From an uncultured Fibrobacter sp. (GTDB lineage Bacteria; Fibrobacterota; Fibrobacteria; Fibrobacterales; Fibrobacteraceae), in assembly GCA_947165045.1 (NCBI GenBank), contig CAMUYW010000004.1:16395-80394 (forward strand): DNA of 64,000 nucleotides. The letters are read 5' to 3'. The first letter of the stretch is position 1, and each line of letters begins with the position of its first letter. This document shows, in pieces, positions 22,753 to 63,869 of the stretch. The position numbers were made by a program, and so were the translations under genes. The notes under the pieces are model-generated. The model was not told the DNA's origin, made no database searches, and saw only the letters and a list, made by a program, of their open reading frames with translations.

Positions 22753-22780
22753 CCTCAGTTTTCCCAAAACTGAGGGGAGG
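22753..22780. repeat. 28-nt palindrome-containing repeat, left copy
   Basis: CCTCAGTTTTCCCAAAACTGAGG is a 10-bp palindrome with a CCC loop, continued by GGAGG. The identical 28 nt occur in inverted orientation at 60684-60711, so the two copies bracket the whole polysaccharide region. Confidence 0.9.
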
Positions 22781-22866
22781 AGTAGTCACTCAAAGCCTCA
22801 CTGAAATGGGTAAACAGATGTTGGAATTGAAATGCTCAAGTAAAAAAATCTGCAATGGATGATATG

Positions 22867-57747: not shown

Positions 57748-58844
57748 AAACATTTTTCCATATATTGAATGGATTTTTTTCGTTCCTCATTCAATTTCTG
57801 TTGAACAGACACGAAATCAATTTGTTGCTTATCTAAATCAAGAGGATCGTTTTCTCCAACAACGCGGCTTTGTAAACCAACCTGCTCGACAATGCTGGCC
57901 AATCGAGAACTAAAATGTTCCGGATAAACCACAAAAAGATTACGACTAAAGTTTATTGAAAACGCTGTTGCATGAAAAGAGTCTGTGACAACAGCCTCCG
58001 CATTAGCAAGGAGGGACAAGAAATCTTCTACGCTTGGACAAACAAATACCTTTCCCTTGCGTGAAAAAATTTCGTGAAAACAATAGCTAACGGTATAAAT
58101 GGGAATGTTTTTGGACTCGCTCAATTTTGCGGCGATCGAATCAATTTTAGGTGAACGATTCAAATTATAAACAAAAACATATTTTTTTCCGGCAAAGCGA
58201 TTGGACGCAATTTTTTCCCAATCATTTCCGTTCAACAATAGTGTTGGGTCTAGAACATGTTCCGCAGCAAACCCTAAGCCGGCAAGAATATCTACTCCGG
58301 CCTTTTCTCTACATGACAAAGCAATATATTTTTGAATTAAACGTTTGGTTTCTGGGATTTCCCAGTCATCCAATTTCTTTTTCCCAAAGCTTGCCGCATA
58401 AGCAAAGCAAGGCTTATTTTCTGGTATAAAGTCTAAAAAGAATGCTTTATCTATTTTTTCATTCCAGTCGGAATTCCAAACCTGATCACTGCCTGTACAA
58501 TAGCAATCTGCTACAGGAACTTCTTTTCGCAAATCTTCAATAGAATGGTATTGATTTGAACTCAAATGGATATGGCGTTTCAAAAAGCCCCAAAACATCT
58601 GAAAACGTTTTAAATAGGATGGCAACATTACAATTTGAGCAATGAAACCTACCAAAGGATTTTGCAACACCTTTTTTTTGTTTTTTATTCGCTTTAGCAT
58701 GCCCAATATGGTCATGCGCTCATCAAAATAATCAATCACCTCAACCTGGTGGCCGAGACTCTCTAAAGTTTTCTGTGTCGCATAAGTCTGCAATACAGAA
58801 CCATAGTTTACAATACGATGAAGCGTAATTAGGGCGATTTTCAT
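57726..58844 (-). CDS. Polysaccharide pyruvyl transferase-family protein (pair 2)
   Basis: The 372-residue protein contains ALITLHRIVNYGSVLQTYATQKTLESLGHQVEVIDYFDERM, VADCYCTGSDQVWNSDW, FAYAASFGKKKLDDW, IALSCREKAGVDILAGLGFAAEHVLDPTLLLNGNDW and NAEAVVTDSFHATAFSINFSRNLFVVY. It overlaps both the GT2 gene upstream (4 nt) and its FrhB partner downstream. Plan and motifs as in the other three paired members. Confidence 0.84.
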   Translation of the reverse strand: MKIALITLHRIVNYGSVLQTYATQKTLESLGHQVEVIDYFDERMTILGMLKRIKNKKKVLQNPLVGFIAQIVMLPSYLKRFQMFWGFLKRHIHLSSNQYHSIEDLRKEVPVADCYCTGSDQVWNSDWNEKIDKAFFLDFIPENKPCFAYAASFGKKKLDDWEIPETKRLIQKYIALSCREKAGVDILAGLGFAAEHVLDPTLLLNGNDWEKIASNRFAGKKYVFVYNLNRSPKIDSIAAKLSESKNIPIYTVSYCFHEIFSRKGKVFVCPSVEDFLSLLANAEAVVTDSFHATAFSINFSRNLFVVYPEHFSSRLASIVEQVGLQSRVVGENDPLDLDKQQIDFVSVQQKLNEERKKSIQYMEKCLCKINRI

Positions 58845-59680
58845 ACAGCACCTTTAGAGTAATCTGCCACTAATCTTTCAATTTTTCTCGCTGACCATAA
58901 ATAGCGATGTTTCCAGAATAAATACGCTAAGCCTTTAATATGTTCCCAATTATGTTTACTAAACAACTTCTTTCGAGATAGTCTTTGCCAACTATGCAAA
59001 ATTTTAGCATTTTGGTCTTTGACTACAGACAATCCTGATTTCCAGCAACTGATGCAATAGTCAACGTCTTCAGGGGCGTAAAAAATTTTTTCGTCTAAAT
59101 AACCGATTTTCGCGAGAAGGCAGGGGCGAAACATCCAACAAGCACTCATCAAATAACCAACAGGAATTGCTGAGTTGTCAGATGGATAATTGTAATATTC
59201 TAAAGATTCGCCCCATTTTCTAATTTTTTTGAAGGGAAGAATTTTGGAAAACTTGATTGTTAAAGTGGGTATTTTTCGCCCGCTATTCTGCAGCACGCCA
59301 TTTTCATCGCGCATTTCTGGACCAACAATTCCAATATTTGGATTATCCAAGGTCTTGACCATGGAATACATTGCTGAGTCATTTACTTCAGTATCTGAAT
59401 CAAGAATGCAAATATAATCTACGTTATTACCTATTTTTTTGAGAGCCAAATTTCTTGATATGGTTGTTCCTTTGTTATAAGGAAGCTTGACGACATATAA
59501 CTTATTGTATTCTTTCTTTAACGAGTCCAAAACATCTATGGTCTTGTCATAAGAACCATTATCTACAACATAAGCAGAAACGTTAAACGATGATAATGAA
59601 AAAACAGAACGCAAGCATCTTTCGATAACATTCTGAGAGTTCCATGTCAAAATGACAAAAGCTAACGAAGGCTTATTCAC
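58841..59680 (-). CDS. Glycosyltransferase, GT2 family (rhamnosyltransferase-like)
   Basis: I chose the GTG at 59680 (280 residues): it lies 1 nt after the stop of the upstream epimerase gene, whereas the longer track ORF overlaps that gene by 50 nt. The protein then begins VNKPSLAFVILTWNSQNVIERCLRSVF, with VDNGSYDKTIDVL, NKGTTISRNLALKKIGNNVDYICILDSDTEV (D-S-D), VGYLMSACWMFRPCLLAKIGYLDEKIFYAPEDVDYCISCWKSG (ED) and HSWQRLSRKKLFSKHNWEHIKGLAYLFWKH. This matches WbbL-like transferases. Confidence 0.82.
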   Translation of the reverse strand: MNKPSLAFVILTWNSQNVIERCLRSVFSLSSFNVSAYVVDNGSYDKTIDVLDSLKKEYNKLYVVKLPYNKGTTISRNLALKKIGNNVDYICILDSDTEVNDSAMYSMVKTLDNPNIGIVGPEMRDENGVLQNSGRKIPTLTIKFSKILPFKKIRKWGESLEYYNYPSDNSAIPVGYLMSACWMFRPCLLAKIGYLDEKIFYAPEDVDYCISCWKSGLSVVKDQNAKILHSWQRLSRKKLFSKHNWEHIKGLAYLFWKHRYLWSARKIERLVADYSKGAV

Positions 59681-59681
59681 T

Positions 59682-60677
59682 CTATTCCAGCCCCTTCTCC
59701 TCGCAATCCTTGTACCAGTCCCTGAAAGCATCTTCCAGCGAATAGCTGAGTGGGTAGTTTTGCGAGAGTTTGTATCCGTTGATGTTCGTGCTCACCATGA
59801 GCTTTTTCACGCGGGCCGGGCAGATGCCGAGACCGAGGCCGCCAAGGAGTCCGCAAACAGTCGCCGCGGCCATCATCGGTTTCTTCGGAATGTACGGGAT
59901 GTGCCGTTTAAGGCCTGTAGCCTTGAGCATCGTGTTTGCGATTTGTTCGATGGTGAACGACGGATAATAACAGCAGTTGTGAAGTTGGATGCGGTCGGCG
60001 TTTTCATTCTCGGCCATGGCAAGCATCACGTGGGCGAGATCCTTCACATAAATGCAGGCCTTGATTGTGTCCTTGCGGCCAGCGTAAGCGAATTTGTGAC
60101 TCTTGAGACCCTTGTACAAACGAGTCATATTGCCGTGTTCACCCGTACCAAATACAATTCCCGGGCGCACGATGGAAAGCCTGCGGTTTTCATTTTCCGC
60201 AGCCCATTCGCGATGGATTTTTTCGGCCACCAGTTTCGAAATGCCGTATGGCGTGTTGGGTGTCGGGAGGGTCTCCTCGGTTTTCAATTCTTCCGCAGCG
60301 CCATAGGGCGCGATACTGCTCGTAAAAACAATATTCTCTATGTTATGCTTACGTGCAAATTCGCAGACATTTTCTGCACCGCGAATGTTCGTCTCGAAAT
60401 AGGCATGGTCAGGGTGCCCCGGAGTGCGATGTATTGCCGCAAAATTGAAAATCAGGGTATCTTTGCCGAATTCCCCCTGCATTTCGATAGGTTGGCGGAC
60501 ATCGACGCGCTGGTAATGGATTGCTTCGTTGCCTTGCGGCTCCTCGCAATGACGTTGATCCGCAAGAAGGTCGGCAATGTAGATTTTCGCGTCAGGATAT
60601 TTTTCCCGAAGCAAGTTCGCCGTGTGCGTTCCGATAAAGCCACAGCCGCCAAAAATTATAAACGAATTAAAATTCAT
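59682..60677 (-). CDS. NAD-dependent epimerase/dehydratase with an in-frame palindromic-repeat insertion
   Basis: The 331-residue protein (start MNFNSFIIFGGCGFIG) has the extended-SDR signatures GGCGFIG (about residues 8-14), FNFAAIHRTPG, FTSSIAPYG and YGISK (Y-x-x-x-K, about residues 147-151), and ends in DAFRDWYKDCEEKGLE. It would act on a nucleotide-sugar, making it the entry enzyme of the minus-strand set. After IADLLAD comes QRHCEEPQGNEAIHYQRV. This segment is encoded by CATTGCGAGGAGCCGCAAGGCAACGAAGCAATCC-like sequence, a known type of dispersed repeat (see separate entry). Confidence 0.83.
   Translation of the reverse strand: MNFNSFIIFGGCGFIGTHTANLLREKYPDAKIYIADLLADQRHCEEPQGNEAIHYQRVDVRQPIEMQGEFGKDTLIFNFAAIHRTPGHPDHAYFETNIRGAENVCEFARKHNIENIVFTSSIAPYGAAEELKTEETLPTPNTPYGISKLVAEKIHREWAAENENRRLSIVRPGIVFGTGEHGNMTRLYKGLKSHKFAYAGRKDTIKACIYVKDLAHVMLAMAENENADRIQLHNCCYYPSFTIEQIANTMLKATGLKRHIPYIPKKPMMAAATVCGLLGGLGLGICPARVKKLMVSTNINGYKLSQNYPLSYSLEDAFRDWYKDCEEKGLE
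60517..60553 (-). repeat. Dispersed palindromic repeat inside the epimerase coding sequence
   Basis: On the minus strand GTCATTGCGAGGAGCCGCAAGGCAACGAAGCAATCCA is the widespread GTCATTGCGAGGAGC...GCAATCCA dispersed element. It is in frame within the epimerase and translates as RHCEEPQGNEAIH. It falls after the second beta strand of the Rossmann fold, where a surface loop is expected. Confidence 0.8.
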
Positions 60678-60683
60678 CACACC

Positions 60684-60711
60684 CCTCCCCTCAGTTTTGG
60701 GAAAACTGAGG
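60684..60711. repeat. 28-nt palindrome-containing repeat, right copy
   Basis: CCTCCCCTCAGTTTTGGGAAAACTGAGG is the exact reverse complement of 22753-22780, so the two sites are an inverted pair 38 kb apart. It lies between the epimerase start and the tyrosine recombinase. Confidence 0.9.
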
Positions 60712-60772: not shown

Positions 60773-61606
60773 ATGAGCGACTTTTATAAAGAAGTTATTG
60801 CTATCGTAGAACGGAAATCTACGGAGCTATCGCGTTTTACTTATAGTACGTATATGGGACACATCCGAAAATTGCGGATTTTCAGACCAAAGTTGGACTG
60901 TCAAGATATAGACCAAAATTTTGTAAGCGGGTATATCGAATTTATGCATTCACGTGGGAATAGCCCTGGCACCATTCATCGCTCGTTATCGATATTAAAA
61001 ATGTTTCTTGCGGAGCTTGTCAAAAACTGCAGAATACCCTTTAATCCCATGCAAAACCAGGTGTTGCGTAGGTATCGCTCACGTCGGGAATTTTTGGAAA
61101 TCTCCGAACTAGAAAGCCTTTACCAAAATTTTTGGCGGTATTTTGATGCGGTAACGGTAAGCGAACGTGAAGCGCTGCGGGCGTTTCTTTTTTCGTGTTT
61201 TACGGGATTGCGATATTCAGACCTTAAGGGGCTAAAAACTCGTGATATGCTAAATGGAAAAATTAGGCTTTGTACGCAAAAGACAAATACGCTTGTGTAT
61301 ATTCCTGTGCCGGCTCCGGCGTTGCGGCTTGTGAATGGTGCGAATGATTTGGCGTTGCATGTGGTGAACAACTCGACTTTTAACAAAAATTTGCGTTCGG
61401 GGGCGAAAAAGCTAGGTTGTCACCGTCACTTGCATGCGCATCTTGCGCGGCATACTTTTGCGACATCGTGTATTTCGTTTGGAATTCCGCTTGAGGTGGT
61501 TTCAAAACTGCTCGGCCATGCAAACTTGCAGACCACATTGATTTACGCGAGGTATTCTAATAGTGTTATAGACCGCGAAATGCAAAAATTTAAAATCAAC
61601 GCATGA
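60773..61606 (+). CDS. Tyrosine recombinase (XerC/D or invertase type)
   Basis: The 277-residue protein has an N-terminal SAM-like core-binding domain (YSTYMGHIRKLRIF, YIEFMHSRGNSPGTIHRSLSILKMFLAELV) and the catalytic domain with Arg in FTGLRYSDLKGL (about residue 146), HLHAHLARHTFATSCI (H-x-x-R, about 222-225), LLGHANLQTTLIYARYS (His about 248, Tyr about 258). All catalytic residues are present. It is shorter than XerC/XerD (about 300) and its start and end are the same as those of the remnant at 20452. Such enzymes catalyse DNA inversion or integration. Its location next to an inverted repeat is noted in the findings. Confidence 0.87.
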   Translation: MSDFYKEVIAIVERKSTELSRFTYSTYMGHIRKLRIFRPKLDCQDIDQNFVSGYIEFMHSRGNSPGTIHRSLSILKMFLAELVKNCRIPFNPMQNQVLRRYRSRREFLEISELESLYQNFWRYFDAVTVSEREALRAFLFSCFTGLRYSDLKGLKTRDMLNGKIRLCTQKTNTLVYIPVPAPALRLVNGANDLALHVVNNSTFNKNLRSGAKKLGCHRHLHAHLARHTFATSCISFGIPLEVVSKLLGHANLQTTLIYARYSNSVIDREMQKFKINA

Positions 61607-61694: not shown

Positions 61695-63869
61695 ATGACT
61701 AATACTCCAGAAACAACAAGTCAAGTCCCTAATCAAGTTGCTGCATCGCAGGGTATTTTAAAACCGAGCGATGTCATCGACATCTTTGAATTGTTCGGCA
61801 TATTTAGGCGTCATTGGTTGATTTTCGCTGCACTTTCTTTCTTAGGATTGGTGGCGGGGCTAACTTATGCTCGCTATAGCCGTGACCAGTTCCAAAGTAC
61901 AACGATGTTGCAGCTAGATACCAAGTCTAAAACCGGTAAGGCGATTGCCGATATTGGTGAATTTTTTGAATCGCAGAGCCCGGCTAAGGCAGAAATCCAC
62001 TTGATCAAGAGCCTTAGCGTGCTCATGCCCGTGGTCGAGAATCTGCATTTGAACTACAGTGCCGAGCCTCAGGGGATTGTCGACCGTTTTATGCGCCGTG
62101 AAGGGCGCATGGAATTGGAATTGTTCGAACTGCCGGTTGCGCTCACAACCAAGGATGACAAGTGGATTGCCGAGGTCAAGTCCGAAGATTCTTACGAACT
62201 ATTCTCTCCGCTCGGTTCTAGCCTTGTAGTGGGGAAGGTGGGTGAAACGTACCGTGTACCCATCGGCCCTGATACGGTTGCCATTTGTGTCAAGTCTATT
62301 TATGCTTTGCCTGGGCAAACGTTCCGTTTAAGTAGGGCTTCTGTTCTGGATGTGGCTGAAGGTTTGCAAAAAGTGGTTGATGCGATTGAAAAGGATAAGA
62401 ATACGAATATTCTTCAGATTTCGTATATGGACCGCTATCCTGACCGTGCGGCGAACGTCTTGAACGCTATCGCCGAGATGTATGTGCGCCAGAATGTCGA
62501 GATGCGCAGTGCCGAGGCTGAAAAGTCTCTTGAATTCTTAGAAGAACAGCTGCCTACGATTAAGGCAAAGTTGGATTCTGCTCAGCAGCTTTTGACAAGC
62601 TACCGCAACAAGGTGGGTACGGTTGACTTGGGCGCCGAAGCTCGCGGAACTTTGGAGCGTCAGGTGCAACTTAAAACGCAGTTGCTTTCTCTTCAGCAGG
62701 AATATCAAGAAAAGAGCCGTTTGTTCAAACAAGATCACCCGGCCATGCTCGCGATTGTACAGCAGCAGGAGCGCTTACGCAAGGAAATTGGGCGGGAAGA
62801 AGGCAAGACGAAGGCTTTGCCGACGACTCAGCAAGATGTGCTAAAGCTCCAGCAAGATGTTGAAATTAACAACCAACTCTACACGTCCGTTTTGAATAAC
62901 ATCCAACAGCTCCGTGTGGTGCGTGCTAGCGAAATTGGTAACGTGCGTATTGTGGACCCTGCCTATATTCATGCAAAACCGGTTAAGCCCAATCGTAAGA
63001 TTATTGTGCTTGCTGGTTTGGGTGGCGGTTTTGGCTTTGCGTGGATTCTTGTTCTTGTGTTGCATCGCTTGCGCAATCGCGGTGTGGGCTCATCTTCTGA
63101 AATTGAACGTGAAACAGGCGTGAGTGTTTACGCAAAAGTTCCCAAGACTCATATCAGCCACAAACTCTCCGGAGTGAATGAAAGACGATTCATTTTGGCG
63201 AAGGCTGATTCTGAAGATGTCGCGGTCGAAAAACTCAGGGCCTTGCGGACGGCTTTGGAGTTCTCTTGCCTGGACGAAGGTGGCCGCGTGCTGATGGTAA
63301 CGGGTATTGCGCCGGGTGCAGGTAAGTCTTTCATTTCGTTGAATCTTATGCATCTCCTAGCTAAGCAAGGTAAGCGCGTGCTGTTCGTTGATGCGGACTT
63401 GCGCAAGTCTCGTCTTTCGCACAAACACGAAAAGGGCGTGTCCGATATTCTTGCCAATACAAGTAAACTAGATGATGTCGTTGTCGCTATGGATGATGGC
63501 GCGTATTTCTTGCCGAACGGTTCGCATGTGGCTAATCCGGGTGAAATGATTGCGTCCAAGGCCTTTGCCGAACTCATACAGGAATGCCGAAAAAAATTCG
63601 ATATTGTCATTGTCGATACGCCGCCGGTGGCGCTGGTGTCGGATGCTCTGTCCATTGCTAAACTTGTTGACTTTGGCTTGATTGTTATTGAGTTTAAAAA
63701 GCATTCTATGGAAAATATCCAGGATGTCATTGATCAGCTTAAAATGGCTAATCTTGAGAAGATGGCGATTGTGCTGAACCAGTGCGTTCATGACGGTAGT
63801 TCTTACGGTTATGGCTACGGATATGGCTATGGTTATGGATATCGATATAGATACGGTAAAAACAAGTAA
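61695..63869 (+). CDS. wzc: Wzc-type chain-length regulator and tyrosine autokinase
   Basis: The 724-residue protein has a Wzz-type N-terminus (VIDIFELFGIFRRHWLIFAALSFLGLVAGLTYARYS, TM1 at about residues 37-55), a periplasmic coiled coil (about 270-400), a GNVR-like segment near VKPNRKIIVLAGLGGGFGFAWILVLVL (TM2 about residues 433-455), and a cytoplasmic BY-kinase: Walker A GIAPGAGKSF (about 537-546), Walker A' VLFVDADLRKSRL and Walker B VIVDTPPVAL. The C-terminus is a Tyr-rich tail with at least seven YG repeats, where autophosphorylation occurs. It probably controls polymer length and export. It is followed by a terminator. Confidence 0.9.
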   Translation: MTNTPETTSQVPNQVAASQGILKPSDVIDIFELFGIFRRHWLIFAALSFLGLVAGLTYARYSRDQFQSTTMLQLDTKSKTGKAIADIGEFFESQSPAKAEIHLIKSLSVLMPVVENLHLNYSAEPQGIVDRFMRREGRMELELFELPVALTTKDDKWIAEVKSEDSYELFSPLGSSLVVGKVGETYRVPIGPDTVAICVKSIYALPGQTFRLSRASVLDVAEGLQKVVDAIEKDKNTNILQISYMDRYPDRAANVLNAIAEMYVRQNVEMRSAEAEKSLEFLEEQLPTIKAKLDSAQQLLTSYRNKVGTVDLGAEARGTLERQVQLKTQLLSLQQEYQEKSRLFKQDHPAMLAIVQQQERLRKEIGREEGKTKALPTTQQDVLKLQQDVEINNQLYTSVLNNIQQLRVVRASEIGNVRIVDPAYIHAKPVKPNRKIIVLAGLGGGFGFAWILVLVLHRLRNRGVGSSSEIERETGVSVYAKVPKTHISHKLSGVNERRFILAKADSEDVAVEKLRALRTALEFSCLDEGGRVLMVTGIAPGAGKSFISLNLMHLLAKQGKRVLFVDADLRKSRLSHKHEKGVSDILANTSKLDDVVVAMDDGAYFLPNGSHVANPGEMIASKAFAELIQECRKKFDIVIVDTPPVALVSDALSIAKLVDFGLIVIEFKKHSMENIQDVIDQLKMANLEKMAIVLNQCVHDGSSYGYGYGYGYGYGYRYRYGKNK

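Follow-up and report, generated by a model that had tools for sequence, protein, structure and literature searches.

A CGTC-tagged, REP-like palindromic element in frame within an epimerase gene of an uncultured Fibrobacter

In-frame insertions of palindromic elements into protein-coding genes are best known from Rickettsia, and the REP cases found elsewhere are scattered. The window analysed in our study, a stretch of 64,000 nucleotides from an uncultured Fibrobacter sp. (contig CAMUYW010000004.1), was found to contain an NAD-dependent epimerase/dehydratase gene in which a short palindrome is read as protein. The question raised by this locus is whether the palindrome is a dispersed repeat that entered the gene or a native part of the enzyme. 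We conclude that the epimerase gene very probably received a CGTC-tagged, REP-like element once the lineage had split from its sampled relatives. The source genome is a draft (87% complete, in 146 contigs) and the only assembly found for its species; it was analysed through searches and the sequence surrounding their matches. The features of the locus are listed in Table 1.

Table 1. Position of the element and of the neighbouring features in the window.
Feature	Position	Strand	Evidence or remark
CGTC-tagged palindromic element	60517..60554	(-)	Sequence, copy counts, strand fold
Parts of the element: CGTC head, ATTGC/GCAAT as outer arms, GCC-GCAA-GGC as inner hairpin, CCA tail			
NAD-dependent epimerase/dehydratase gene, 332 aa	59682..60680	(-)	ORF, PF01370, orthologue alignment
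Thirteen codons QRHCEEPQGNEAI, residues 42-54	60519..60557	(-)	Three residues there in orthologues (codon alignment)
Tyrosine recombinase gene (PF00589)	60773-61606		Divergent from epimerase, starts ~90 bases away
Wzz/Wzc-type tyrosine kinase gene	61695-63869		After tyrosine recombinase gene
GT2 glycosyltransferase gene	58841-59731		Downstream of epimerase

The epimerase ORF starts with GTG at 60680 or, more likely, with ATG at 60677, as in its orthologues. It matched the PF01370 Epimerase model at 1.3e-29, and its nearest solved structures were UDP-sugar epimerases and threonine dehydrogenases. The preliminary description had placed a 37-nt repeat in frame within this gene, and the placement was found to be exact (60517-60553, minus strand); once the C at the 5' end of the tag is counted, the element reaches 60554. 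The in-frame position was also confirmed, as the ORF is intact and the GGCGFIG and YGISK motifs are unaffected. The size given for the added peptide held only in part: the thirteen codons are present, but the net gain is 10 residues (30 nt) and not 12-13.

The window copy of the element, CGTCATTGCGAGGAGCCGCAAGGCAACGAAGCAATCCA, has the layout CGTC-ATTGCGAG-(GAGCCGCAAGGCAACGAA)-GCAATC-CA and gives the peptide QRHCEEPQGNEAI in the reading frame of the gene. The strand folded at -10.9 kcal/mol (z = -2.05) into a stem of nine pairs, interrupted as 5+1+3, with a loop of 4 nt, followed and preceded by the unpaired CCA tail and CGTC head, respectively. The three forward frames of the element contained no stop codons, and canonical copies usually contained none in two of the three reverse frames. 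No Rfam family matched at the epimerase locus, and in the open-access literature no published description of the element was found by its own sequence, the papers retrieved being unrelated. The genes between 58841 and 63869 form a surface-polysaccharide locus. A perfect palindrome, CCCCTCAGTTTTGGGAAAACTGAGGGG, was present at 60681-60711, immediately before the epimerase start, and again at 22753-22783 of the same window; the genome held no third copy.

The pattern ATTGCGAGN{6,30}GCAATC, which describes the family of the window element (family A), gave 15 matches in its own genome, where the reversed control gave 1. The GTC tag was present in 13 of them; the other two (L033 and L044) contained no GTC head and are likely chance matches instead of true copies. 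Across 37 genomes of the same genus, the family A arms gave 762 matches against 5 for the reversed control, both figures being hand sums. The dispersal claimed for the repeat thus stands for the family, whose copies with conserved arms and variable core are scattered, but not for the sequence itself, the exact 15-mer being found only twice in its own genome. Other genera of the phylum contained mostly no family A match or a stray one, with the exception of G056, a genome from another family of the phylum, which contained 52 copies, often as inverted pairs. These pairs lie about 27 nt apart (e.g. C3:81511-81588), as in the published dimers of CGTC REPs. In a plasmid search with the canonical element, Methylosinus plasmids matched it over 35 identical nucleotides, and plasmids of Methylocystis, Novosphingobium, and Legionella lytica matched it nearly; the element type is therefore not confined to Fibrobacterota.

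Among 106 copies read in context, the head was CGTC or TGTC in nearly all, and the tail was CCA, CTA, CTC, or similar, with CA or TA following most copies. The outer stem of these copies is ATTGC/GCAAT and so opens with AT pairs, arms that the search pattern itself demanded. The GTC tag was found in 98 of the 106, and these contained 86 distinct cores, with inner stems of 2.94 bp on average compared with 2.02 +/- 0.07 in shuffles. The inner hairpin varies from copy to copy but remains self-complementary. A second family, GTCATCCTGAG..GGATC, equals or exceeds that of the window in abundance: 41 copies were counted in the own genome and as many as 97 in other genomes, with none in the control. 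It was found to be of the same design, as its 62 long-core copies had inner stems of 3.89 bp compared with 2.17 +/- 0.09 bp in shuffles. At a few sites only (L152/L170 and L200), orthologous or duplicated, the flanks and arms were conserved and the cores were wholly different, which points to replacement of the core by conversion or template switching. The inner hairpin was also swapped for an unrelated self-complementary one at orthologous or duplicated sites in L148 and L166.

A search for further in-frame copies found them in several other Fibrobacter genes. Family A copies were present inside the domain matches of HemD (uroporphyrinogen-III synthase), LpxB, BioW, and MnmE, and between domain matches in HemC (porphobilinogen deaminase), an EF-G-like protein, and an FAD/succinate-dehydrogenase-like flavoprotein, the last including the copy in the own genome (L041/L278). 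A type I restriction specificity protein also contained an in-frame family A copy, within or between its Pfam-recognised domains. In serine-rich linkers of Fibrobacter proteins (L035, L036, L142, L150, L161, and L165), antisense copies are read as IASSSS..RND, so that the repeat blends into the linker.

The orthologues of HemC, MnmE, and the flavoprotein were gathered from the genus and aligned, and the same loops were found to be filled by different families. The counts are lower bounds from regular expressions, which missed degenerate or longer copies (L215, L246, L251, L273, and L274), and they tally species and not insertion events. The inter-domain loop of HemC contained one of three repeat families in 18 of 30 species, namely family A (ATTGCGAG) in 7, family B (CATCCTGAG) in 7, and family C (CATTCTGAG..GAATCC) in 4, with none recognised in 12. 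A clean pair is formed by the empty loop of L258 (ADNAQVAGILAR) and the filled loop of L254 and L257 (ADNAQVAKRHPEECSDEGSSPAENLSR), which is 15 aa longer; the insert belongs to the second family (GTCATCCTGAG..GGATC), lies in frame, and gives the peptide RHPEECSDEGSS. Family A was read in two frames in HemC, as RHCEGNSPKQS (L241-243) and as NVLASHEVATQS (L247), and these copies would most simply be independent insertions. Of 28 flavoprotein loci, 5 had family A in the linker and 15 had a repeat of a fourth type, D (CTTCGGC..GCTCAGGG); in MnmE, family A was present in 2 of 30 and family B in at least 3.

Repeated occupation of the same HemC and flavoprotein loops is what would be expected if the added peptides were selected for a function, for example as a binding tag or an enzyme regulator. 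A simple tolerance filter also yields such occupancy, however, and the families and frames differ by species, so that no common peptide is conserved. In the AlphaFold model of the epimerase, the insert (residues 42-54) is flanked by beta strands 2 (32-37) and 3 (54-58); the strands are confident, whereas residues 43-50 form a loop with pLDDT < 50. We consider a selected function improbable, and the peptide added by the inserted element probably has no function of its own.

The absence of the element from close homologues, which the preliminary description had anticipated, was observed in all ten epimerase orthologues from same-genus genomes (69-88% identity) and in the epimerases of named Fibrobacter relatives. 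The interval from ADLLA to QRVDV contained about 6 residues in most orthologues (e.g. EGSALS) and sixteen in the window (DQRHCEEPQGNEAIHY). In the orthologue L007 the loop contained eleven residues of unrelated sequence, a five-residue extension, and F. intestinalis (L104) contained a different long loop at the insert site; loop length therefore also changes by other routes. In distant homologues, the loop ranged from almost nothing to MPGEEGVVPGIVEK and was unrelated in sequence to the element. Homologues from Lachnospiraceae and Ruminococcus contained a similarly long loop of the MPGEEGVVPGIVEK type, as would be expected if the segment were an ordinary ancestral long loop of the epimerase family that resembles the repeat by chance. 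These loops share no sequence with the segment, however, which indicates a length-tolerant loop and not an ancestral segment; the loops of close Fibrobacter orthologues are shorter and element-free, and the DNA of the segment agrees in both arms, head, and tail with a family that numbers hundreds of copies. Distant homologues bearing the segment itself, which the preliminary description had named as refuting evidence, were not found among those compared. An ancestral origin is thus highly unlikely, and insertion of the element remains the preferred reading. The nearest orthologue is only 88% identical and nine target bases were replaced, not merely interrupted, so that another route of loop change is still conceivable.

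Transposases that could mobilise the element were searched for in 61 genomes with the PF01797 (Y1) and NF047646 (RAYT) models, and neither gave a match in the own genome. The RAYT model stayed below its cut-off in every Fibrobacter genome searched, and copy-rich genomes such as G024 (78 copies) gave no match to it. The Y1 model had no match in several copy-rich genomes, and where it had one, no obvious relation to element copy number was found. A RAYT or Y1 transposase as mobiliser is not supported by these searches. A RAYT-mobilised GTAG REP (REPIN type) would agree with the REP-like size, hairpin shape, and dispersal, but it is scarcely credible given the CGTC head and the outcome of both transposase searches. 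GTAG REPs and REPINs share with the Fibrobacter element the form of small dispersed hairpins, found as singletons and inverted pairs, and differ from it in the head tetranucleotide and in their RAYT, of which Fibrobacter had none above the cut-off.

The CGTC-tagged REP-like element is closest in description to the CGTC-tagged REPs, which were defined in five phyla, Fibrobacterota not among them, by Di Nocera, De Gregorio and Rocco (2013; PMC3733652). These REPs are without a dedicated transposase, and two of their families were equated with RPE-6 and RPE-4 of Rickettsia (PMC3733652). The Fibrobacter element shares with them the unpaired CGTC head, the AT pairs at the start of the stem, the CCA tail left unpaired, a copy number in the tens per genome, the lack of an associated transposase (of the RAYT and Y1 types searched for), and the presence of some copies within ORFs. 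The published stems are of 8-9 bp with loops of 4-5 nt, whereas the Fibrobacter element has a 5-bp outer stem, mismatches, and a copy-specific inner hairpin; the same authors noted that bulged members may have been overlooked (PMC3733652). Because the interrupted stem is not a clean fit to the published stem length, the element is best called CGTC-REP-like, a name based on the published description.

The manner of the Rickettsia palindromic elements, to which the element had been likened, was recovered here, in that a dispersed palindrome appears inserted in frame and stop-free in a gene whose homologues are without it, and has become protein sequence. The host phylum is different, and a further difference is that several families share the same loops across Fibrobacter species. 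The likeness drawn here to RPE-4 and RPE-6 is one of behaviour, the search set being of genomes other than Rickettsia. That this would be the first clear case outside Rickettsia is not supported, since CGTC- and GTAG-tagged REPs were already listed within ORFs of several other bacteria, where the intragenic copies were argued to be possibly neutral, being in linkers or loops (PMC3733652). Fibrobacterota as host phylum and the repeated colonisation of single loops by different families look new; neither Fibrobacter as host nor such repeated filling was found described in the open-access literature searched.

All the observations are accounted for by insertion together with purifying selection that preserves frame and loop. 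Following the split of the lineage, a copy of the dispersed CGTC-tagged element, mobile or copied, would have landed in the epimerase gene and made the beta2-beta3 loop ten residues longer. With a net insertion length divisible by three and a surface loop that tolerates it, the protein would have stayed functional, and the epimerase is probably still made and active. As the element is stop-free in most frames, survival would be decided by net length and place. Selection would purge all other insertions, so that the surviving intragenic copies would be those in loops and linkers. The same filter would act throughout the genus, in which the permissive loops of HemC, MnmE, and the succinate-dehydrogenase-like flavoprotein have been filled repeatedly by different palindromic families.

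For annotators, peptides such as RHCEE..EAI, CHPE..EGS, and those resembling LRQAQGP can be repeat-derived when found in conserved proteins. A wider idea, which we offer tentatively and hold to be rather doubtful, is that Fibrobacter species maintain an ongoing process, with no known transposase, by which palindromes are sown into genes and the regions between them. The arms of these palindromes would stay constant and their inner hairpins would continually give way to new self-complementary sequences, so that the loops of housekeeping enzymes are diversified by repeat peptides in one species after another. In this gut-bacterial genus, the loops of HemC, MnmE, and the flavoprotein are filled by several families and empty-site orthologues are at hand, so that the rate at which repeats become protein, the loops that tolerate them, and their spread without a known transposase can be measured.
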